Positions 5,208-25,032 of a stretch of 32,246 nucleotides of DNA are shown here, piece by piece. Source of the DNA: an uncultured Nitrosomonadales bacterium (GTDB lineage: Bacteria > Pseudomonadota > Gammaproteobacteria > Burkholderiales > Methylophilaceae); the NCBI GenBank assembly GCA_913048465.1, contig CAJWVO010000013.1, positions 1 to 32,246 of the forward strand, read 5' to 3'. The notes below the pieces were generated by a model. The model saw only the letters and a program-made list of their open reading frames with translations. It searched no databases and had not been told where the DNA came from. A program made the translations under genes and the position numbers. Position 1 is the first letter of the stretch, and every line of letters starts with the position of its first letter.

Positions 5208-5981
5208 CTAATTGATCGCAACCTCAGATACAAACTTATTATCCTTTGTATCTGTTGCCAATATCTGTATTTTGCCATCTACTAAATTAGGAAGGCTGAA
5301 TTTAATAAATGGATCTTGACTGATTGATATTTTGTTCTCAACAGTTATAACTTTTTTTCCATTTTGATTAAATTCGATGGTTTCTACTATCCATTCTGGA
5401 ATATAGCCACCAGAATCTAAATCTTTTTGTAGACCGGTGAAATTAGGGTGCTTGATGCGCGTGGTAATAAATTTGTTTTCAGCTTTTAAGATTATTTTAC
5501 CTAAATCTTTAGTGAGCTCTGGGTCGTGAACATCCATATAGCCGCTACATCCACCCGATGCACGAATAGGAATTGCATCCATAAATAATTCACCTTTTTC
5601 ATTTTCTGCAATAACGCGCACGAATGAATCGGTTTCCATTCTTATGCGTGTGCTGATATTAACTATCTGTGATTGATCGGTTAACAAATAGGTGGCAGCA
5701 TGTTGACCAGGATTGGCGTCTATGTACATATACACCTTTTCAATTTTGTTATCATTTTGACTAATGCTGATTGTCACTGGGACTTGGGCCCCGCTAGATG
5801 CTCTCTTAGGCCCATCTATTTTTAAAAAATTTTGATTTTCTTGAATTGGACGATCTTTAAAAACTTGAGCCTTCAGGTAAGGCCATATATCAGGGCTGGC
5901 ATCAGCAAAAACATTGAATGCTATTGTTAGGTTTATAAAGCCTATTAGGAAAAAACTATTTAAAAATTGAATTTTTTTCAT
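5208..5981 (-). CDS. Quinoprotein dehydrogenase-associated SoxYZ-like carrier protein
   Basis: The 257-aa exported protein has a signal peptide (about 1-26, cleavage near VFA|DAS). A SoxY-like domain follows, ending in a swinging-arm-like motif GGCSGY with Cys145. A SoxZ-like domain comes next (ITTRIKHPNFTGLQ at about 172-185). In sulfur oxidisers SoxY and SoxZ form a carrier that binds intermediates on the Cys of GGCGG. The fused single-chain form belongs to a family typically encoded near PQQ-dependent alcohol dehydrogenases in methylotrophs and their relatives. What the fused protein carries is not established to my knowledge. It is divergent from the Sel1-repeat gene (about 78 bases apart), and the pqqA pair lies 1.1 kb away, which supports a link to periplasmic methanol oxidation. 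Confidence 0.85.
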   Translation of the reverse strand: MKKIQFLNSFFLIGFINLTIAFNVFADASPDIWPYLKAQVFKDRPIQENQNFLKIDGPKRASSGAQVPVTISISQNDNKIEKVYMYIDANPGQHAATYLLTDQSQIVNISTRIRMETDSFVRVIAENEKGELFMDAIPIRASGGCSGYMDVHDPELTKDLGKIILKAENKFITTRIKHPNFTGLQKDLDSGGYIPEWIVETIEFNQNGKKVITVENKISISQDPFIKFSLPNLVDGKIQILATDTKDNKFVSEVAIN

Positions 5982-6701: not shown

Positions 6702-6896
6702 ATGAAATATTTAAAAGTTTTAACATTAGTAGGTTTTCTAGCAATGTTTTCATCAGTATTTGCTGATGAAAAAGAGTTTCACCCAACAGATGCGCTTTTA
6801 ATTGGCGGTAACGGTGGCTTCAATCCAACTGGTGATGAAGATTCACCAATTAAAATGCCTGGCGAAGACGGATTTGAATCAGGTGATGCGAAGTAA
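6702..6896 (+). CDS. Small acidic, glycine-rich exported peptide
   Basis: The 64-aa product is not recognised. It has a textbook Sec signal peptide (1-21, ending SSVFA|DE), and cleavage leaves about 43 residues. The mature peptide is strongly acidic (11 Asp/Glu against 3 Lys), rich in Gly and Pro, and has no Cys. Key stretches are LLIGGNGGFNPTGDED and MPGEDGFESGDAK. A strong ribosome-binding site GGGAGAG precedes the ATG, and a clean terminator follows at 6907, so it is a monocistronic and probably well-expressed gene. The acidic composition would suit binding of cations, but there is no EF-hand. It is located upstream of the pqqA pair, and a link to PQQ enzymes is speculative. Confidence 0.75.
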   Translation: MKYLKVLTLVGFLAMFSSVFADEKEFHPTDALLIGGNGGFNPTGDEDSPIKMPGEDGFESGDAK

Positions 6897-6906
6897 TTGT
6901 TCAGCT

Positions 6907-6941
6907 ATGACCTGGAGCAAGCTCCAGGTCATAATGATTTT
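6907..6941 (+). terminator. Terminator after the 64-aa exported peptide gene
   Basis: A perfect 11-bp stem, ATGACCTGGAG (6907-6917) with CTCCAGGTCAT (6922-6932), has the loop CAAG and is followed by a short T-rich tail (6938-6941). The tail is weak, but the stem is strong. It separates the peptide gene from pqqA. Confidence 0.7.
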
Positions 6942-6995: not shown

Positions 6996-7051
6996 ATTTA
7001 GTTGTAAATCTCAAGTTGAACCTTTGCACTTGCTGCATCTTCAATGATCTG

Positions 7052-7078
7052 GTTTATGTTGATTTTTATAACATAAAC
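7052..7078 (+). promoter_or_regulatory. Hairpin abutting the ribosome-binding site of the first pqqA
   Basis: A perfect 9-bp inverted repeat, GTTTATGTT (7052-7060) and AACATAAAC (7070-7078), has the 9-nt loop GATTTTTAT. The Shine-Dalgarno AAGGAG (7079-7084) begins at the next base, so folding of this stem would lie directly beside the ribosome landing site. The second pqqA has the same Shine-Dalgarno but no such hairpin. Confidence 0.55.
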
Positions 7079-7091
7079 AAGGAGAAATACT

Positions 7092-7163
7092 ATGTGGACA
7101 CAACCAACAGCAACTGAAATGCGTTTTGGTTTTGAAGTAACAATGTACGTTTGCAACAAGTAA
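7092..7163 (+). CDS. pqqA: Coenzyme PQQ precursor peptide PqqA, copy 1
   Basis: PqqA is the ribosomal peptide whose Glu and Tyr side chains are cross-linked by the radical SAM enzyme PqqE (with PqqD) and then trimmed and oxidised to PQQ, the cofactor of methanol dehydrogenase. This 23-aa peptide, with MWTQP at its N-terminus and the core FGFEVTMYVCNK, has Glu15 and Tyr19 in the ExxxY spacing and exactly the usual length and residue numbers of the family. The Shine-Dalgarno AAGGAG lies 7 bases upstream of the ATG. A near-identical copy starts 198 bases downstream (20 of 23 residues identical; differences Q4K, T6A, C21M). No pqqBCDE genes are in the window, so both are orphan precursor genes. 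Copy 1 uniquely carries a cysteine at position 21. Confidence 0.92.
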   Translation: MWTQPTATEMRFGFEVTMYVCNK

Positions 7164-7168
7164 TTTTA

Positions 7169-7267
7169 ATGAAATTACAACGTCGTAGACATACTGACAT
7201 TACTTTTTGGCCGTTTCATAACTGGCAATGCACTTGCCCGATATGTTCGGCTAAATCTTTTAATTAA
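7169..7267 (+). CDS. Possible 32-aa Cys/Trp-containing peptide between the pqqA copies
   Basis: An ATG frame of 32 codons fills the gap between the two pqqA genes, starting 5 bases after the first stop. The product starts with a basic stretch (MKLQRRRHTD), then TFWPFHNWQ, then the cluster CTCPIC, and ends SAKSFN. No Shine-Dalgarno is visible, so it could only be translated by coupling to pqqA. The frame overlaps a decayed terminator-like stem at 7236-7251. It may be a real small peptide (the Cys and His residues could bind metal) or a chance frame in a duplicated spacer. I know no matching family. Confidence 0.25.
   Translation: MKLQRRRHTDITFWPFHNWQCTCPICSAKSFN
7236..7261 (+). terminator. 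Imperfect terminator-like stem after pqqA copy 1
   Basis: GCCCGA (7236-7241) can pair with the bases up to GGC at 7251 with one bulged C, giving about 5 bp, followed by the T-containing tail aaatctttt. It starts with the same GCCCGAT heptamer as the perfect terminator after copy 2 at 7386. It looks like a weakened copy that would allow read-through into the second pqqA. Confidence 0.4.
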
Positions 7268-7289
7268 TTTTCTTTTAAGGAGAAATATT

Positions 7290-7361
7290 ATGTGGACAAA
7301 ACCAGCAGCTACTGAAATGCGTTTTGGTTTCGAAGTAACCATGTACGTAATGAACAAGTAA
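7290..7361 (+). CDS. pqqA: Coenzyme PQQ precursor peptide PqqA, copy 2
   Basis: This is the second 23-codon PqqA, with N-terminus MWTKPAATEMR and core FGFEVTMYVMNK. Glu15 and Tyr19, the residues that PqqE joins to build PQQ, are intact. The Shine-Dalgarno AAGGAG is again exactly 7 bases before the ATG. It is 63 of 72 bases identical to copy 1. Of the nine changes, four are silent codon changes and the other five fall in three altered codons, so both copies look maintained at protein level. It has the strong terminator (7382-7410), while copy 1 has only a weak one. Having more than one pqqA is known in some methylotrophs and is thought to raise precursor supply. Whether both are used here is unknown. 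Confidence 0.92.
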   Translation: MWTKPAATEMRFGFEVTMYVMNK

Positions 7362-7381: not shown

Positions 7382-7410
7382 AAAAGCCCGATGTATATCG
7401 GGCTTTTTTA
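7382..7410 (+). terminator. Rho-independent terminator after pqqA copy 2
   Basis: The perfect 11-bp stem AAAAGCCCGAT (7382-7392) with ATCGGGCTTTT (7397-7407) has the loop GTAT and runs into a T tract (7404-7409). It is a strong terminator, placed 20 bases before the next gene. Confidence 0.9.
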
Positions 7411-12312: not shown

Positions 12313-13072
12313 TACACATTGCCACTTTGATTTTATCTACAAGAACAAATTAAAAGACGAATCTTTGTTTGATAATACTTTCCTGGATTTTATTATTTGT
12401 CCCTCTGCCAATCATATGAGTTTTAATATTTTAAAAAAATTAAATCAAAAAAATAAAAGTATTGTCTATGCATTCGGCTATCACCCCCTCTATCTGAATG
12501 ACTTACCAGAGAATCCGATTCAGTATTTAGAAAATGAGATTCTAAATTCACAGCCAATCGCCGTTGGTGAAATAGGATTAGACTTTTATTTAGGGAATAA
12601 GGAGAAAGAAAAACAAAAAATAATTTTCCAGCAGCAGCTTGAGTTGGCAAGCAAATATAAATTACCAGTAATCTTGCATGTGAGATCAGCCATCGATGAT
12701 GTATTGAAGATATTAAAAGACTTTCCAGGTATTAAAGGAATTGCTCATGCATTTAATGGGAGTTTTCAACAAGCTCAACAATTTATTAATATGGGTTTTA
12801 AACTCGGCTTTGGTGGGGCGATGACTTATTCAAGAGCCAAGAAAATTAATCGATTAGCTCTAGAGTTACCAATTACCTCGATTGTTTTGGAGACAGACGC
12901 ACCCGACATGAAGCCAGCATGGGTTAATGCCACTAGCCAAAATCATCCTAATGAAATCAGAGGCATTGCCGAATTTTTCGCACAATTAAGAAATATTTCT
13001 TTGAATGATCTGTCTTGGCAATTAAAGAATAATATTGCCGATATCTTTCCAGATTTAGGAACTGCATCATGA
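12302..13072 (+). CDS. tatD: TatD-family metal-dependent hydrolase / DNase
   Basis: This TIM-barrel metallohydrolase belongs to the TatD family (3'-5' exonuclease/DNase or quality-control hydrolase). The product begins MWIDTHCHFDF with the metal-binding HxH (residues 6 and 8). It continues with FGYHPLY, GEIGLDFY (metal Glu), VILHVRSA, IAHAFNGS and VLETDAPDM (metal Asp). I chose the ATG at 12302 (256 aa) because the HxH motif lies near the N-terminus in this family. An ATG at 12266 would add 12 non-conserved residues and lengthen the overlap with ribD. The stop overlaps the start of mtnA in an ATGA arrangement. The cellular substrate is unknown. Confidence 0.9.
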   Translation: MWIDTHCHFDFIYKNKLKDESLFDNTFLDFIICPSANHMSFNILKKLNQKNKSIVYAFGYHPLYLNDLPENPIQYLENEILNSQPIAVGEIGLDFYLGNKEKEKQKIIFQQQLELASKYKLPVILHVRSAIDDVLKILKDFPGIKGIAHAFNGSFQQAQQFINMGFKLGFGGAMTYSRAKKINRLALELPITSIVLETDAPDMKPAWVNATSQNHPNEIRGIAEFFAQLRNISLNDLSWQLKNNIADIFPDLGTAS

Positions 13073-18878: not shown

Positions 18879-19714
18879 CTTGCAAATGATTTAGTTAATA
18901 CGAGCTTTTCATCCTTAATATTTAAGCTATCATCTTGTGTGTCTAAGGTTTTTTCAAATAGAACGTGTGTATAGTCTTCGCAGAAAATAAAATTGACTAC
19001 AGTTCCAACACTTTGATCATTTTCAAAGACCTGCTCCCCATAGTCTAAAGACAATTTAGAATTTATCACACCATAAAAACTTCGATGTTTTGGTTTGCCG
19101 AGATAATGTGTTCTTGCAACTATTTCTTGGCCGGTGTAGCACCCCTTTTTAAAATTAACGGCATCTATTAAATCAAGGTTACATGTGTGTGCTAAAAATT
19201 TTTCTTGTGTTTGTTCCACTACCTCTGGAATGCCAAATTGAATATCTTTTTTAATCCAATTTGAAATAACCCTAAAAGAATATTCACTTGTAATTTGATT
19301 AAATAAATCAGGATCGTTAAAAATTGCTACAGATCGATTTGTTTGATCAGGTAGGGCTAATTTCTGACCAGTAGGTATATTAATTAGAGAACTATCATCA
19401 ATAATTCCTAATAGATGAAAGTTTTCTGCTTTCTTAATCACAACCTTAGATCTGAGAATAAACATCGTTAATCTTTTTTGAACAGCATCAGCTAGAGATG
19501 AGGGGATGACTAAAAAGGTTGAGTTAAAATCAGGAACTCTCAAGATTCTTAAAAACGCAAATAATCTTCCCTTAGGGTTACACATACCGCTATAAATAAA
19601 CTTTTTTTCATTTTTTTTGACATCGTTTGTCAGTTGACCTTGGAGAAAGTCAAGGTGATCTTCCCCTGAAATTTCAATGATTGAATAGCGATCTAATAAA
19701 TTGACAAGCATCAT
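18875..19714 (-). CDS. ygfZ: Folate-binding YgfZ/GcvT-like iron-sulfur maintenance protein
   Basis: YgfZ is a folate-dependent protein that supports assembly or repair of some Fe-S enzymes, including MiaB-type tRNA modification. The 279-aa product has the family signature KKGCYTGQEIVARTHYLGKPKHR with its conserved Cys, and an N-terminal GcvT-like fold (EISGEDHLDFLQGQLTNDV, GMCNPKGR). It is shorter than the E. coli protein (326 aa). Its ATG overlaps the stop of mxaL (ATGA), so it is the seventh gene of the mxaRSACKL transcript. Nothing in the sequence shows a direct role in methanol oxidation. The link may be shared expression only. Confidence 0.92.
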   Translation of the reverse strand: MMLVNLLDRYSIIEISGEDHLDFLQGQLTNDVKKNEKKFIYSGMCNPKGRLFAFLRILRVPDFNSTFLVIPSSLADAVQKRLTMFILRSKVVIKKAENFHLLGIIDDSSLINIPTGQKLALPDQTNRSVAIFNDPDLFNQITSEYSFRVISNWIKKDIQFGIPEVVEQTQEKFLAHTCNLDLIDAVNFKKGCYTGQEIVARTHYLGKPKHRSFYGVINSKLSLDYGEQVFENDQSVGTVVNFIFCEDYTHVLFEKTLDTQDDSLNIKDEKLVLTKSFAS

Positions 19715-20676
19715 GTAATTTTTCTAATTAGGCTAGTGATATTCGCTTTTGATATGAATCTGGCGATAAAAAACAATAATGCAAGAAAACATAAAATAGG
19801 TTGAAGATAAAACTGATCTGGTGCTTTCCATGCAGGAGGTTGCTTTTTCATTTCTTTTCTGATGGCACGATAACTCTGACCATCTACATAAAAACCCCCG
19901 ATTTCTTTAGCTAATTTTTCAAGGTATTCACTATCAAGTTTGGACATATAGCGATCAGTTGCACCACTGGCTACTTTGTTATCTCTCACACCAATGTTTG
20001 ATTCAGATATCTGCGCAATCCCTGGTTGAAGAGCAAAACTATCATTGGACCAATACCCAATAAGTTGATTTTTATTATCATATTTTGGGATCGGTGCTCC
20101 TTCATTAGAACCTATTCCAACAAATAACCAATCATTGCCACCCTGAAACTGCTCAAGATCCCTTGTATTAAACACATGAAGTTTTGGAGCTTCTTCACCG
20201 TCAGTAAAATAAACTACTTGTGCAGACTCTGGAAAACTCCGAATAAGTCTGGCTAAATTAATCACAGACTCTCTAATTCTTGTATTGCCTGACCATGTAA
20301 CTCTCCAATCAAGTTTACTAATGGTTGTATTAATATTGCTAAAGTTTTCACATACTTCAATTGGGGAATAAGTTGCTGAAACAGACACTCCAGCAAACAT
20401 CCCAATACTTACTTTGGTGCCGCATGGAAAGTCCTCCACTAAGCGGCTCATGATATGTTTTGTGTAGTCCAATCGAGATACCGTTTTTTGATTAATTTTC
20501 ATATCTTCCGTGTTCATACTTTGAGAAATGTCTGCAATTAAAATATAGTTATAAAGGGATTGATTAACTGGTATAGATGGATTAATTAGTGCTAGCACCA
20601 ATAAAATGAAGCTAACAAGGAGAAAAAAATCACTTTTTTTCTCAAAATGTTTTTTAAATTTATCAAAAAAGATCAT
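19711..20676 (-). CDS. mxaL: MxaL, von Willebrand A-domain protein for methanol dehydrogenase maturation
   Basis: The 321-aa membrane protein has an N-terminal transmembrane helix (about 17-32) and a VWA domain with the MIDAS motif DISQS (in LIADISQSMNTEDM). A later Asp is in YFTDGEEAP, and a C-terminal transmembrane helix lies near 292-308. Together with MxaA, C, K, R and S it belongs to the accessory set needed to put calcium into PQQ methanol dehydrogenase (MxaFI). The large VWA part between the two helices would face the periplasm. Identity rests on the family plus the exact gene order R-S-A-C-K-L. It overlaps mxaK upstream and ygfZ downstream by four bases each. Confidence 0.85.
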   Translation of the reverse strand: MIFFDKFKKHFEKKSDFFLLVSFILLVLALINPSIPVNQSLYNYILIADISQSMNTEDMKINQKTVSRLDYTKHIMSRLVEDFPCGTKVSIGMFAGVSVSATYSPIEVCENFSNINTTISKLDWRVTWSGNTRIRESVINLARLIRSFPESAQVVYFTDGEEAPKLHVFNTRDLEQFQGGNDWLFVGIGSNEGAPIPKYDNKNQLIGYWSNDSFALQPGIAQISESNIGVRDNKVASGATDRYMSKLDSEYLEKLAKEIGGFYVDGQSYRAIRKEMKKQPPAWKAPDQFYLQPILCFLALLFFIARFISKANITSLIRKIT

Positions 20677-21224
20677 GGTAAACCGATAGGAATATTACCC
20701 ATAATGAGGCCTGGAGCATCTGAGTCTCCAACCCCTGGTGTGGGGTCAGGTGGGAGCATGGTAAGTAACCTGTCTAGGTTATGTTTTGCATCCCAATAAT
20801 AAGGACCAAATTTTAATGATTGACGATATGCTTTATTGGCTTGTTGAAACAGATATTCCGCCTCATCTCTAACAGACATGCTTGTTCCATTAATGATCAA
20901 ACCTCTTGTAAAGAAAATATTTCCTATATTGTATTGGAGTGCTGATTTTTGATCGTCATCAGCATCTTTCATAAGCGCATTAAATAAAATTGTTGATTCT
21001 TTAAACATTTCTTTTTTAGCCAACCAATATGCCGTGGAATATCTTGCTTCAAAACTCTGTTCAAAAAATGATGGATTCTCACCAGCTGACACTTCATTAT
21101 TAAATTTATTTGTTTGATACAGATTAAAAAGATTAAAAATGATGAATAAGGCGCTAAGGACTAAACTTATCAAGGCTATGCTAGTTATGTATTTAACTGT
21201 AAAAAATTGATTTAATTTTTTCAT
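20673..21224 (-). CDS. mxaK: MxaK, methanol dehydrogenase accessory protein
   Basis: The 183-aa protein has one N-terminal transmembrane segment (ITSIALISLVLSALFIIFNLFNLY). The remainder is predicted periplasmic and resembles a TPR-type helical protein: AYWLAKKEMFKESTILFNAL, ALQYNIGNIFFTRG, LFQQANKAYRQSLKFGPYYWDAKHNLDRLL. It lies between the two VWA genes exactly where MxaK is expected. TPR proteins next to VWA proteins are typical of MoxR-linked (Bat/Mxa) clusters. The tail ends in a Pro/Gly-rich stretch. Identification rests mainly on position and fold. Confidence 0.82.
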   Translation of the reverse strand: MKKLNQFFTVKYITSIALISLVLSALFIIFNLFNLYQTNKFNNEVSAGENPSFFEQSFEARYSTAYWLAKKEMFKESTILFNALMKDADDDQKSALQYNIGNIFFTRGLIINGTSMSVRDEAEYLFQQANKAYRQSLKFGPYYWDAKHNLDRLLTMLPPDPTPGVGDSDAPGLIMGNIPIGLP

Positions 21225-21228
21225 AATA

Positions 21229-22209
21229 TTATTTTTTTAACTCAATTAGTTTAAGAAAAAATAGTACAAATGTCATTAAAAAAGCACCAATTAGAAGATG
21301 GAGCGAATAATTAGCCCCTGGAATAACTTCTTCATAAAAAATTTGTTTTTTTTCTTTCAAGTTAATATCTTTGATGGCTTTTTCTAGTGATGAGGGATCT
21401 TCTGCCTCATAAGCCTGAAATGGTGATCTGAAAGTTTTGAAATAATCAAACAATTCAATTTGAGGTGGAGGTTGTGTTTCATCTCTAATTTTAAGATTTT
21501 CATCAAAGATACTTATTCCTCCAGGTTGTCGCAAGACAATCCAATACAAACCAATATCAAAACGATCAAACCAATCTCTTATTTTTTGTTGGGTTGGCGC
21601 ATCAATTCTTCCAGCTCCATCTGATAATAAAATTACGGCACGAGAGCCCGAGTCTTCTACCTTAGCGAAGAGTTCTGAAACGCTTGAAAGACCAGCCCCA
21701 ATATTTGTTTGAAATAGCGCATTACCAGCTGTTGCATTAACTGCACCTGTAATTGCACTCTTATTTTGAGTGAGAGGTAAAACAAACATTGCCGAGTTAC
21801 TAAAGGTTATAACTCCAATCATGTCATTTTTTCTTGACTCGACAAAATTGATAATAAGTCTAGCAGCAGCAGCTGATTTAGTCTCACCAACACCCTCATC
21901 GTCAAATTGGGTTGATCCAGAAAAAGGATCGTCCATAGAGGCACTTCTATCCAGTACAAGTCCAATTTGAGACCCAACTCCAACTTTAGTAACTGTTTCT
22001 TGAGGCATTTGAGGGGATGCAAAATATAGAATTAAAAAAAGAATAATCAAACTATTAAAAACTTTAATTAAGATAGATAGGAACAGCGATGATGAATCAT
22101 CAGGAATTAGCGTGTTCCAAGAATAAAAGTTTTTAGATATTACTTTAAAAATAAAAGGGACGAATACCAATGGAATTAAGATCAGAAATAAAGGGTTCAA
22201 AAAAAACAT
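21229..22209 (-). CDS. mxaC: MxaC, von Willebrand A-domain membrane protein
   Basis: The 326-aa protein has two N-terminal transmembrane segments (about 2-22 and 48-66), a VWA domain and a C-terminal membrane helix (about 303-322). The complete MIDAS motif is DRSAS in VLDRSASMDDPF, with LSDGAGRID later. This is the BatA-like architecture of MoxR-associated clusters. MxaC is required for active calcium-containing methanol dehydrogenase. The gene starts 3 bases after mxaA and stops 4 bases before mxaK, so the whole set is one transcript. Confidence 0.86.
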   Translation of the reverse strand: MFFLNPLFLILIPLVFVPFIFKVISKNFYSWNTLIPDDSSSLFLSILIKVFNSLIILFLILYFASPQMPQETVTKVGVGSQIGLVLDRSASMDDPFSGSTQFDDEGVGETKSAAAARLIINFVESRKNDMIGVITFSNSAMFVLPLTQNKSAITGAVNATAGNALFQTNIGAGLSSVSELFAKVEDSGSRAVILLSDGAGRIDAPTQQKIRDWFDRFDIGLYWIVLRQPGGISIFDENLKIRDETQPPPQIELFDYFKTFRSPFQAYEAEDPSSLEKAIKDINLKEKKQIFYEEVIPGANYSLHLLIGAFLMTFVLFFLKLIELKK

Positions 22210-22212
22210 ATC

Positions 22213-23184
22213 TTATATTTTTATTAATTTAATATCTGTATTCTTAACAGGAATCTTTTTTTCACATAAATGAAGATGAAAGCAGAAAAAAATCAGCCAA
22301 TCTCTAATTGATGCATTCTCCTTCATTTGTTTAGTAAATAATTTTTGATTTGAAATTTTAAAAAATAAAATTAACTCTTTTTCAATAAACTTAAAAGATG
22401 AGTTTTTTGTATACAGGTCTTCAAGGTTTTTTTCAAAAATACTCGCTTCTGAATAATTATTTATTTGCCCATGAATCAATTTAATGATCTCATCAATCTT
22501 TATATCTTTACCTTTTTTTAATTTTCTATGTAACGGTAAAAATGTCTTTTTAAATCCTGGAAGAATAGTGAATTTTGTATAAACATACAAAAGAACAAAG
22601 ATGGAAAAAATAAAGACAGCAGCACCGATATAAATTTTATTTAAGTATTGTTGTTGTTCAATTAAAACTGGCCCTCTAAAATCACTCATATCCTCTTGGA
22701 CTTTAATATCTCCAAATATTGCAATAGGGGATACTGCTATAGTGAGCTCGGGTACCCTTAGTTTTAAAACTTCTTCGGGATTTTTTTTATTAATGACCCT
22801 GTAGTAATCAGCTGTTATAAAGGCTGGCTTAGCTACCACGTTGTTAGTAAATATTTGATAAGTCAAAAGCATATCTAATTCATTCTTGTTGATTCTCTTG
22901 TCGATATTTTGCAGAGTAATTCCAAGCAGCTGGCCCCTAAAACGTTTTTCATAGCCCACAATTGGCAATGATTCTTCGACGAGGGCGTAAGGTTCATGCA
23001 CAGTCAATTTAATTTGTCTTTGTACCAGATCACCAACATGGTATCCAACTTTCTGACTGGGTTCGGTTATTGATAATGTGTAAAACTCTTCACCAAGATC
23101 AGGGTATTTTTTTGGATCTTCAAATGCAAAAACTAAATTTGCACATGCAAATAATATAATAAACCTAAGCATGATAATACTCAT
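22213..23184 (-). CDS. mxaA: MxaA, methanol dehydrogenase maturation protein
   Basis: The 323-aa protein has a signal peptide, a periplasmic beta-rich domain (about 25-185; KVGYHVGDLVQRQIKLTV), a central transmembrane helix (YIGAAVFIFSIFVLLYVYTKF) and a C-terminal cytoplasmic helical part. MxaA is needed for calcium insertion into MxaFI. The start is uncertain. The first ATG overlaps mxaS by 20 bases, but Met5 (ATG at 23170-23172) gives a cleaner signal peptide (MLRFIILFACANLVFA) and an 8-base overlap, and may be the true start. Sequence conservation in this family is low, so the name rests partly on gene order. Confidence 0.82.
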   Translation of the reverse strand: MSIIMLRFIILFACANLVFAFEDPKKYPDLGEEFYTLSITEPSQKVGYHVGDLVQRQIKLTVHEPYALVEESLPIVGYEKRFRGQLLGITLQNIDKRINKNELDMLLTYQIFTNNVVAKPAFITADYYRVINKKNPEEVLKLRVPELTIAVSPIAIFGDIKVQEDMSDFRGPVLIEQQQYLNKIYIGAAVFIFSIFVLLYVYTKFTILPGFKKTFLPLHRKLKKGKDIKIDEIIKLIHGQINNYSEASIFEKNLEDLYTKNSSFKFIEKELILFFKISNQKLFTKQMKENASIRDWLIFFCFHLHLCEKKIPVKNTDIKLIKI

Positions 23185-24016
23185 TAAAGTAGTGAGTCAT
23201 ATCATCTGGATTAAATTCACTCTCCACAAAAAAAGGTGGGGCATCAAAGTCATTAAATAATTTCGTCAATTGATTCTTTCTTTGATTAAATTCAGTAATA
23301 ATATTTTTGATGAGTTTTTTTCTTAACAATATTGTTCTTTCTTCTAATGTTTCAGGGTCGGTGAATGTTGTAATACCAAACTTCGGTAAATTAGAATATT
23401 CATCCTTATCCCATAGAATGACCGGAACAATAGTGTGTTTTCTTGTGTTATTCAAAAATGCTGTTATCTCTTCAATAGGCATATGAAAATCAGAAATAAA
23501 AAAGATCAGTGTATGATCCTTTGGAAGGTATTGATGAAGCTTTAAAATCCCATTAGAGCCTTTATTATGATTTTTTTCTAAGGCAATTTTGTCGATCAAG
23601 CTCTCGGTTAGGTATGGCCTATAGGACAGGGGGGCAATCCATTTATCATCTACGGTATCATGAAAGCCGACAAGACCAATAGCATCACTATTTTGGTAAG
23701 CAGAGTTTTTAATAATTTTTGCAATCTCTGCTGCACGCTCTAACTTGCTTGCTTGACCAAAACTCATGCTGGTTGATAAATCATTAAAAATCATAATGGG
23801 TGTAGCACTTCTTTGATTGAAAATACGCACATAAACCTGATCCATGGGATCTCTCATTGTCATTCTAAGATCTATCCTTCTTGGGTCTGGATAATCAAGA
23901 AGATTTGAGTGACCAGCAAATTCAATTCCCATGCCTCTCTGATCGGATTTATGTCTTCCTGGATGAATTGCTTTGGACTTCCAGTTGATATGATAATTAA
24001 AGAACTCGACAGACAT
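23165..24016 (-). CDS. mxaS: MxaS, DUF58-domain protein
   Basis: The 283-aa cytoplasmic protein belongs to the DUF58/VWA-like group. It has GIEFAGHSNLLDYPDPRRIDLRMTMRD, the DUF58-type stretch VYVRIFNQRSATPIMIF and a MIDAS-like DLSTSMSFG. MxaS pairs with the MoxR-type ATPase MxaR in the methanol dehydrogenase maturation system. The start overlaps the mxaR stop by one base (TAATG), showing tight coupling. Confidence 0.88.
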   Translation of the reverse strand: MSVEFFNYHINWKSKAIHPGRHKSDQRGMGIEFAGHSNLLDYPDPRRIDLRMTMRDPMDQVYVRIFNQRSATPIMIFNDLSTSMSFGQASKLERAAEIAKIIKNSAYQNSDAIGLVGFHDTVDDKWIAPLSYRPYLTESLIDKIALEKNHNKGSNGILKLHQYLPKDHTLIFFISDFHMPIEEITAFLNNTRKHTIVPVILWDKDEYSNLPKFGITTFTDPETLEERTILLRKKLIKNIITEFNQRKNQLTKLFNDFDAPPFFVESEFNPDDMTHYFNEYYHA

Positions 24017-25032
24017 TAATGCGCACTTACCTTATTGATTATTTCGGTAGTTAATTCTCTGGATATTTCAGTCCTTCGTAGATCATATACGGGATTAAAT
24101 ACTAATCTGTGCGCAATAGTTTCATGGAAAATTTGATGAATATCTTCTGGCAGAACTGACGAACGATTGTTCATCCATGCGTTAACTCGAGCACATTTCA
24201 TCATCATACTAATTCCTCGAGGACTTGATCCAGCAACAATAAGCCTGCTGATATCAATATCAGATATCTTAATATTGAAGTCTTGCGGTTTTATCGTTGC
24301 TTTCCATAAATTCAAAGCATATTTTTCCAATTCTTTAGTGGCATCAATATTTTCTTGAATTTCGGCGGCTACTTTATTTAACTGATCAAAGCTCAATTGA
24401 TCTGTTTTAACATTGGTTATTAGTTCATCAGCATTGTGAAATTTTGTATCAAAAATTAAATCAGTCATTAAGCCATCGTTATTAGGAATAACGATTGGAA
24501 TTTCCATCATAAACCGATCCCTAGCAGCAGATGGTATTTCAAATGTCTCTTCTTTTTCAACTTGATTTCGATCTGCAAAAACAATTAAATGTGGAAAGTG
24601 AAACTCTTGGTTAAATGCAGATAGTGTTTTCTCAGCCATGATTCTTAGCATAAGAGAATGCACCTGAGGCCTTGCTCGATTTATTTCATTGAAGAAGAAG
24701 ATACTTAAATCTTCACCAGATCTTAGGACAGGACCTTTATCGACATGGGGTTTGCCATCATCACCTAAATAGGTATGGTAGATCAAATCATTTGGCATTA
24801 AGTCAATGGTCCCCTCAATCCTCTCATAACCTCCTCCAATACCTCGAGCAACAGCACGCAGCATTGTCGTTTTTCCGACTCCAACATCACCTTCTAATAA
24901 GACATGTCCACGAGCAAAAATTGAAATAAGAATGAGACGAATTGGATTTTCTTGACCTAGGATAACTTCATTGATTTGTTTTTCTAGAGTTGTTGCACTT
25001 TTTAACCAATCGGCGAGATTTTTTTTTGCCAT
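24016..25032 (-). CDS. mxaR: MxaR, MoxR-family AAA+ ATPase
   Basis: The 338-aa AAA+ ATPase is the energy source of the mxa maturation machinery. The Walker A motif GDVGVGKT is at 48-55, and the Walker B region is IFFFNEINRARPQ (111-123). The second acidic residue, Glu116, is present, but the usual Asp before it is Asn115. Further on are FADRNQVEKEETFEIPSAARDRF (sensor and arginine-finger region) and SPRGISMMMKCARVNAW, the MoxR sensor-2 stretch. It is the first gene of mxaRSACKL-ygfZ. Upstream is a short region shared with divergent fabA that contains an inverted repeat. The structural genes mxaFJGI, which precede mxaR in many methylotrophs, are not here. Confidence 0.92.
   Translation of the reverse strand: MAKKNLADWLKSATTLEKQINEVILGQENPIRLILISIFARGHVLLEGDVGVGKTTMLRAVARGIGGGYERIEGTIDLMPNDLIYHTYLGDDGKPHVDKGPVLRSGEDLSIFFFNEINRARPQVHSLMLRIMAEKTLSAFNQEFHFPHLIVFADRNQVEKEETFEIPSAARDRFMMEIPIVIPNNDGLMTDLIFDTKFHNADELITNVKTDQLSFDQLNKVAAEIQENIDATKELEKYALNLWKATIKPQDFNIKISDIDISRLIVAGSSPRGISMMMKCARVNAWMNNRSSVLPEDIHQIFHETIAHRLVFNPVYDLRRTEISRELTTEIINKVSAH

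Follow-up and report, generated by a model that had tools for sequence, protein, structure and literature searches.

The precursor peptide PqqA is known through the families TIGR02107 and PF08042, and the tandem pair of genes analysed here agrees with it in peptide length, in the E-x3-Y motif and in scores that lie above both family cut-offs. In Methylovorus MP688, the availability of PqqA has been called the rate-determining step (PMC11317620, in the accessible part of its text, citing Ge 2015). The Methylophilaceae as a family carry 3-12 pqqA per genome, typically with one set of the other pqq genes, according to the accessible part of PMC4109929, and the existence of extra pqqA copies in methylotrophs, which the sequence-only reading of this DNA had mentioned, is in this way already documented. 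The locus described here differs from the multiple copies reported there in being a tight tandem, in carrying a leader on copy 1 and in having a microgene between the copies, none of which is described in the accessible text of that paper. A structured leader at pqqA likewise has a precedent, the c-di-GMP riboswitch listed for Methylophaga nitratireducenticrescens GP59 (PMC12530212, Table 4, accessible part), but that riboswitch belongs to another RNA class, as judged by Rfam to E 10. A cis-regulatory RNA is also known from a phage of the OM43 clade, namely the glutamine riboswitch of phage Melnitz, described for tmRNA in the accessible part of PMC9004378; it does not stand at pqqA, and the OM43 leader has no glnA-family match. 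Phage pqqA has itself already been reported as an auxiliary metabolic gene, with one virus predicted to infect Methylophilaceae (PMC7678222, PMC13188868), whereas the leader RNA, the microgene and the intron discussed below are not mentioned in the accessible portions of those reports. The structured leader and the conserved microgene look new, and no description of either was found in the open-access literature; the sequence-only reading had mentioned neither of them, nor their phage-borne versions.

In the window, by which we mean the whole stretch of 32,246 nucleotides that was analysed, the pair lies within a compact arrangement with the following features, all on the forward strand.

7004..7091, forward: structured 5' leader RNA of pqqA copy 1 (match of covariance model R1 at 7004-7094, folds, covariation)
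7015-7020 with 7040-7045, forward: leader stem P1 (folds, covariation)
7025-7028 with 7034-7037, forward: leader stem P2 (folds, covariation)
7052-7060 with 7070-7078, forward: leader stem P3, adjoining the Shine-Dalgarno sequence (SD) (folds)
7079-7084, forward: SD of pqqA copy 1
UCUC with GAGA of the SD: possible closing stem P0 (single-sequence folds)
7092..7163, forward: pqqA copy 1, 23 codons, Cys21 (open reading frame, profile scores, genus conservation)
7169..7267, forward: conserved microgene of 32 aa, MKLQRRRHTDITFWPFHNWQCTCPICSAKSFN (kept in 20/23 pair loci, dN/dS 0.25, third-position variation)
7290..7361, forward: pqqA copy 2, 23 codons, Met21, without leader RNA (open reading frame, profile scores, genus conservation)
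7382..7407, forward: intrinsic terminator-like hairpin closing the unit

Our main reading, to which we assign a probability of roughly 0.6, is that this is a self-contained unit under leader control that supplies PqqA, that phages use the same element and that the microgene product binds metal. The unit would comprise, in this order, leader RNA, pqqA1, microgene, pqqA2 and terminator, and the separately encoded PqqBCDE enzymes would make PQQ from the PqqA that it supplies.

The two pqqA genes were found as the sequence-only reading had placed them: intact and in tandem, each of 23 codons, with 20 of 23 residues identical, with differences between MWTQPTATEMRFGFEVTMYVCNK and MWTKPAATEMRFGFEVTMYVMNK at residues 4, 6 and 21 only, and with Glu15 and Tyr19 of the cross-linked E-x3-Y motif present in both. 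The two copies score 40.2 and 40.4 bits against TIGR02107 (cut-off 20) and 39.2 and 42.4 bits against PF08042 (cut-off 21.1), and these scores, together with conservation in the genus, rule out chance open reading frames; judged on the same grounds, both genes are genuine, intact and conserved. Two details of the earlier reading have to be amended. The ribosome-binding sites, said to be identical, are one base apart (AAGGAGAAATACT and AAGGAGAAATATT), and Cys21 of copy 1, said to be rare, is common, being found in 21/23 first copies of the genus and in 35/79 of the bacterial pqqA rows collected (Met:Cys 44:35); residue 21 is Met in 23/23 second copies.

Around the unit, the window holds a 64-aa open reading frame with a signal-like start upstream (6702-6896; no family above cut-off), with a terminator-like stem behind it at 6906-6933. 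Positions 5208-5981 of the reverse strand encode a quinoprotein-associated SoxYZ-like carrier (TIGR04557), and there is a MoxR/DUF58/VWA cluster, with Pfam matches for two genes, at 19711-25032, also on the reverse strand; we take the latter cluster to resemble mxaRSACKL. Directly before the leader, the promoter scan picked up nothing resembling a sigma-70 pair.

Copy 1, and not copy 2, is preceded by a conserved stretch of 88 bases that runs up to its start codon. The architecture of this stretch consists of a two-tier hairpin, P1/P2, and a third hairpin, P3, by the ribosome-binding site, with conserved unpaired CUCAA and YGANCUG; across divergent carriers the conserved unpaired columns are CTCAA, AC, TCT, GA and TG. 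Nine single-sequence folds (3 bacterial, 6 viral) all share the P1/P2 arm and the P3 arm, and are only moderately more stable than shuffles, with z-scores from -1.15 (L130; 25/200 shuffles as stable) to -4.87 and a value of -2.15 at the source locus. Within the genus alone, two-sided changes occur in 6/32 pairs. The wider alignment A8 comprises 61 leaders (18 bacterial and 43 viral), without L250 (E 0.6), the truncated L224 and duplicates or near-duplicates; 91.5% of its cells are paired, whereas shuffles reach 75.4% and slid versions 36-50%, and it holds 253 two-sided changes against 78, counts that lean towards structure because the alignment was fitted to the model. In the same alignment P1 is paired in 99.7% of cells and P2 in 94.5%, and two-sided changes occur in 4/6 P1 pairs and in 8/8 P2 pairs. 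RNAalifold, unaided, chose P1 and three P2 pairs, with two-sided changes in 7/9 pairs, and in an arm test that serves as the alignment-free check, 13 of 15 distinct arm pairs were fully paired, shuffles averaging 3.3 with 0/5000 as high; the two misses are a stray site in L312 and a genus variant with one mismatch.

P3 is variable among leaders. As to P0, 3-4 bases of UCUC/CUC pair with the SD in the nine minimum-energy folds, the stem being absent from one centroid and lacking covariation support; two of its four pairs are invariant, one is unpaired in 24/58 rows, and the GAG at the SD is missing from some viral leaders (L216, L219, L236, L262). Judged by the compensatory changes in P1/P2, the P3 arm and the conserved unpaired nucleotides, the leader is a real structured RNA. 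No class of Rfam release 15, c-di-GMP and glnA included, matches 7004-7091 at the gathering threshold or at E <= 10, and a known Rfam class was rejected as its identity.

The distribution of the leader was followed with the covariance model R1, which was built from 23 bacterial leaders only and gives rough E-values. With stricter filters, R1 finds exactly one leader in each of 23/187 genomes of the family, all of this genus and all at copy 1, and none at pqqA copy 2 or at the third pqqA. HTCC2181 (L316) and KB13 (L317) have leaders that also occur, base for base, within the genus, and both strains belong to OM43 (PMC9004378, accessible part, with a lineage record also for HTCC2181), which is why we equate the genus with the marine OM43 clade and not with Methylopumilus. 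Among 91 viral and phage loci listed (80 of them from the viral PqqA scan, 3 from that for the microgene and 8 from phage records), R1 finds 8 leaders at E <= 2.3e-5, each ending at the pqqA start codon; most of the phage-borne pqqA examined thus have no such leader.

An RNA-only pattern that contains no base of pqqA, and that finds close forms only, was run over IMG/VR and over 84,980 species genomes. The IMG/VR search gave 84 stretches, and in 79 of the 80 loci read the leader directly precedes pqqA, the remaining one (L224) being cut off; ATGTGGA follows within 90 bases downstream of 79 viral leaders, and with R1, 78 of the 80 reach E <= 0.06. The 80 loci represent 39 distinct leaders, none identical to a bacterial leader, and at least 5 of the loci are contigs already in the viral PqqA scan. 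Behind these leaders, 66 pqqA frames are complete, 4 run off the end of the contig and 9 are interrupted. The species genomes gave 25 matches, of which 18 are identical to leaders of the genus and for that reason are not independent evidence, and 7 are chance; all 18, which the covariance model also matches, stand before pqqA. The seven rejected matches, without a covariance-model match, come from Clostridia, Desulfotignum, Alkalihalobacterium, Bryobacterales, Cellulomonas, Mycobacterium and a gammaproteobacterial MAG. In all the sets searched, pqqA appears as the sole downstream gene of the leader.

Viral pqqA is frequent: the viral PqqA scan gave at least 600 stretches, a lower bound on prevalence, of which 591 were confirmed among those listed and 80 were kept, the kept set being biased towards close sequences. 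The cultured methylophages Venkman, P19250A, MEP301, MEP401 and MEP402 carry pqqA with no annotated feature under the match (records MT375522, KX815270, MW452941, OP830906 and OP830907, phages of Methylophilales/Methylophilaceae), and a term search of the text of the MEP401/402 paper found no mention of PQQ. Four records of Melnitz hold a weaker pqqA-like match of 77% identity, with no R1 hit at E <= 5. There are also two Acinetobacter 'phage' records; in the one examined, pqqB, pqqC and pqqD are annotated next to the match, and the DNA looks bacterial. From eight viral contigs that carry leader and pqqA, ten proteins were compared with PHROGs; eight were assigned to families (DNA polymerase, UvsX, terminase, SSB, helicase, clamp loader, SbcD-like and homing endonuclease), two (from L207 and L273) had no family, and on our own reading these genes would be T4-like.

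Several further peculiarities were seen at the viral loci. In L273 the leader is followed by two pqqA in tandem. In 9 of the 80 viral leader loci pqqA is interrupted in codon 14 (L238 at 12397-12700, L216, L230, L236, L254, L259, L260, L262, L267), the remainder of the gene being found 273-320 bases past the start in 7/9, while two contigs end first. The group I intron model RF00028 matches the L238 interruption at 84.9 bits, the only one of five sources searched to match, L230 and L262 giving none in that search; on short stretches, L216 and L259 reach 65.3 bits each (cut-off 50). Viral pqqA with other leaders (L109-L196) have a perfect hairpin of at least 5 bp before the ribosome-binding site in 51/76 cases, against 41/161 shuffled, and these hairpins are perhaps further leader classes.

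The link of the leader to pqqA alone, its conserved unpaired junction and its place by the ribosome-binding site favour a role in the control of pqqA. The leader would control translation of pqqA1 via the junction by the ribosome-binding site, such that PqqA supply follows a signal; we infer this because P3 directly adjoins the SD, and pairing is possible between the conserved CUC and the GAG of the latter. The obvious candidate ligand would be PQQ, although the signal may instead be another metabolite, a metal or a protein. Since the leader stands on copy 1 only, a difference in expression between the two copies is plausible, and pqqA2, with its own ribosome-binding site, would provide a second, leader-independent supply from the same transcript. 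Phages would keep the element so that infected cells continue PQQ production for methanol oxidation.

What kind of control this may be is a matter on which several readings compete. The leader may be a riboswitch that responds to a metabolite, PQQ or an intermediate of the pathway, by shutting off translation of PqqA, a tentative possibility for which it speaks that pqqA alone follows the element in the bacteria and viruses searched, that the folds put the SD in the closing stem and that unpaired nucleotides are conserved; however, the element was not seen before other pathway genes in the hits read, and covariation gives P0 no support. The fuller proposal, namely that this is the first PQQ-pathway riboswitch class, which would bind PQQ or a PqqA-derived intermediate and switch PqqA translation, and which OM43 would have exchanged with phages along with a PQQ-linked metal-binding micropeptide, strikes us as rather speculative.

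The main rival sees in the leader a stabiliser or an enhancer of translation that works without a ligand, its folded 5' end protecting an abundant tiny mRNA and presenting the ribosome-binding site. Each PQQ uses up one PqqA, and high PqqA output is therefore needed; perfect hairpins before the SD are moreover common in viral pqqA leaders of other sequence (the 51/76 against 41/161 given above). Yet a stabiliser needs no unpaired CUCAA, AC and YGANCUG kept from bacteria to viruses while the stems change, and we consider this reading doubtful. Rather unlikely is a third possibility, in which the leader is a binding site for a protein and not a small-molecule sensor: protein-binding leaders, too, are typically built as a two-tier stem with an internal loop and conserved flanks, so that the architecture fits, and a phage can rely on a host protein, but no candidate protein is linked to the element.

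The microgene starts 5 bases past the stop codon of pqqA1 (5-11 bases in the genus), inside the 126-base spacer, and has the motif W-x2-H-x3-C-x-C-P-x-C. Among the pair loci of the genus it is kept in 20 of 23 and lost in 3. Over a 21-codon core and 17 distinct sequences its dN/dS is 0.25, with 0/200 column shuffles as low, and the other two frames give 1.3 and 1.7; on these ratios the microgene is under purifying selection. Residues M1, W14, H17, C21, C23, P24 and C26 are invariant in 16 sequences from six genera, and the H-x3-C-x-C-P-x-C part suggests a putative metal site. In our main reading the product would be a metal-binding micropeptide, with one His and three Cys, whose translation would be coupled to that of pqqA1. 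Against Pfam and NCBIfam, the microgene stays below the cut-off of every family. The YnfU-type zinc-binding family NF038384 shows a sub-threshold likeness (12.7 bits against a cut-off of 36, E about 0.06) and was rejected as its identity; the microgene is much shorter and not a member.

Profile A2 at E < 1e-7 finds 36 microgene places in 34/187 genomes of the family, distributed over 20/31 genomes of this genus, 10/16 of g15, which we guess to be Methylopumilus, and one genome each of g2 (of 1), g6 (of 6), g18 (of 52) and g23 (of 1); among the g15 matches, that of G089 has no start codon. A further 22 family genomes that match only at E 0.008-0.1 were taken as chance, and an occurrence of the microgene outside the family was rejected: among 399 genomes of the order 17 matched, six of them strongly, all from this genus or g15, and the other 11 with E 0.001-0.01, mostly over short stretches. 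Two pqqA flank the microgene in g2 and g23; in g6 it begins with an ATG that overlaps the pqqA stop, and in g18 it precedes pqqA. In g15 it usually follows another small Cys/Trp-rich open reading frame that ends like VFVCKQGDKACWQRWSSAMTDCV (L072-L080, L090), with pqqA upstream in L072, L073, L075 and L090, while the available stretch of the other loci shows none. The g15 loci L074, L076 and L077, in which no pqqA was seen, have upstream a palindrome similar to TGATAAGTA-A-TACTTATCA, and in L075 there are genes that by eye encode a Fur-like regulator and a GTPase of COG0523 type.

In a scan of 171 loci from viral contigs and phage records, the microgene follows pqqA in L107, L108 (the contig of L249), L207, L227, L233, L241, L242 and L258, and L106 has it without pqqA in the available stretch. 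At L207 the sole ATG yields 18 codons, and L241 shows no evident ATG. The viral microgene scan gave 18 peptide-pattern stretches, of which 3 were confirmed, and the cultured phages gave no match in the microgene search. A homing-endonuclease-like gene precedes the microgene in L107 (220-696, phrog_655), where it lies between pqqA and the microgene, and, by resemblance, in L106 (3-482).

The microgene could instead be an upstream open reading frame that regulates pqqA2 in response to metal or cysteine, with no functional peptide, and its end 21-30 bases before pqqA2 in the genus would suit such a role; this is nevertheless an unlikely reading, since in viral L207 the microgene is followed by a terminator-like hairpin and no second pqqA, and the g15 microgenes have no downstream pqqA in the stretch shown, several of them with an AGGA-like stretch before the start.

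The micropeptide, like the pair that frames it, would belong to a unit that works with enzymes encoded elsewhere. As the sequence-only reading had noted, pqqBCDE are absent beside the pair. The source genome, in 46 contigs and 88% complete, has profile matches to pqqC and pqqE on another contig, C15, where the adjoining open reading frames resemble pqqB and pqqD by eye. It has three pqqA at E <= 10, namely the pair and a solo copy between other genes on contig C1; none lies on C15, which, within the 88% of the genome covered, discounts a hidden pqqA next to the enzyme genes. The earlier reading had named a complete pqqABCDE operon with its own pqqA elsewhere, together with broken frames or absence of the two copies in close relatives, as the finding that would speak against it; no such operon was found, because the pqq enzyme genes of this genome have no pqqA beside them. 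At L008:2877-9310 the pqq enzyme genes come, by eye, after aroF-, hisC- and pheA-like genes, which puts the synthesis of aromatic amino acids next to the use of a precursor that contains Tyr.

Conservation of both copies in relatives, which the sequence-only reading had proposed to examine, is borne out: the pair is kept in 23/31 genomes of the genus, at a spacing of 182-203 bp from start to start. Overall, 29/31 genomes of the genus have pqqA (21 with three copies, 2 with the pair only, 6 with one and 2 with none), and the eight with one or none are all 47-84% complete. In the Methylophilaceae, pqqA was found in 185/187 genomes, with 1 to 12 matches each; the earlier reading had called the stand-alone tandem unusual, but orphan copies as such are no exception in a family of which multiple copies are typical (PMC4109929, accessible part). 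That the pair is a dispensable leftover of duplication is very improbable: a third pqqA does exist, but both frames are kept in 23/31 genomes of 0.7-1.4 Mb, residue 21 consistently sets the two copies apart, and the pqq enzyme genes lack an adjoining pqqA.

The supply of PqqA is described as rate-determining in one methylotroph, and a leader that has so far been found at pqqA only, among streamlined marine methylotrophs and viral contigs, makes the control of PQQ supply in cells testable with a short RNA in vitro. The viral leaders suggest that phages may retain a control element as well as a 23-codon metabolic gene, and the 32-codon microgene is an easily overlooked addition to the locus. Taken together, the leader shared by bacteria and viruses and the mini-genes that accompany it suggest that the supply of the cofactor may be under common control.
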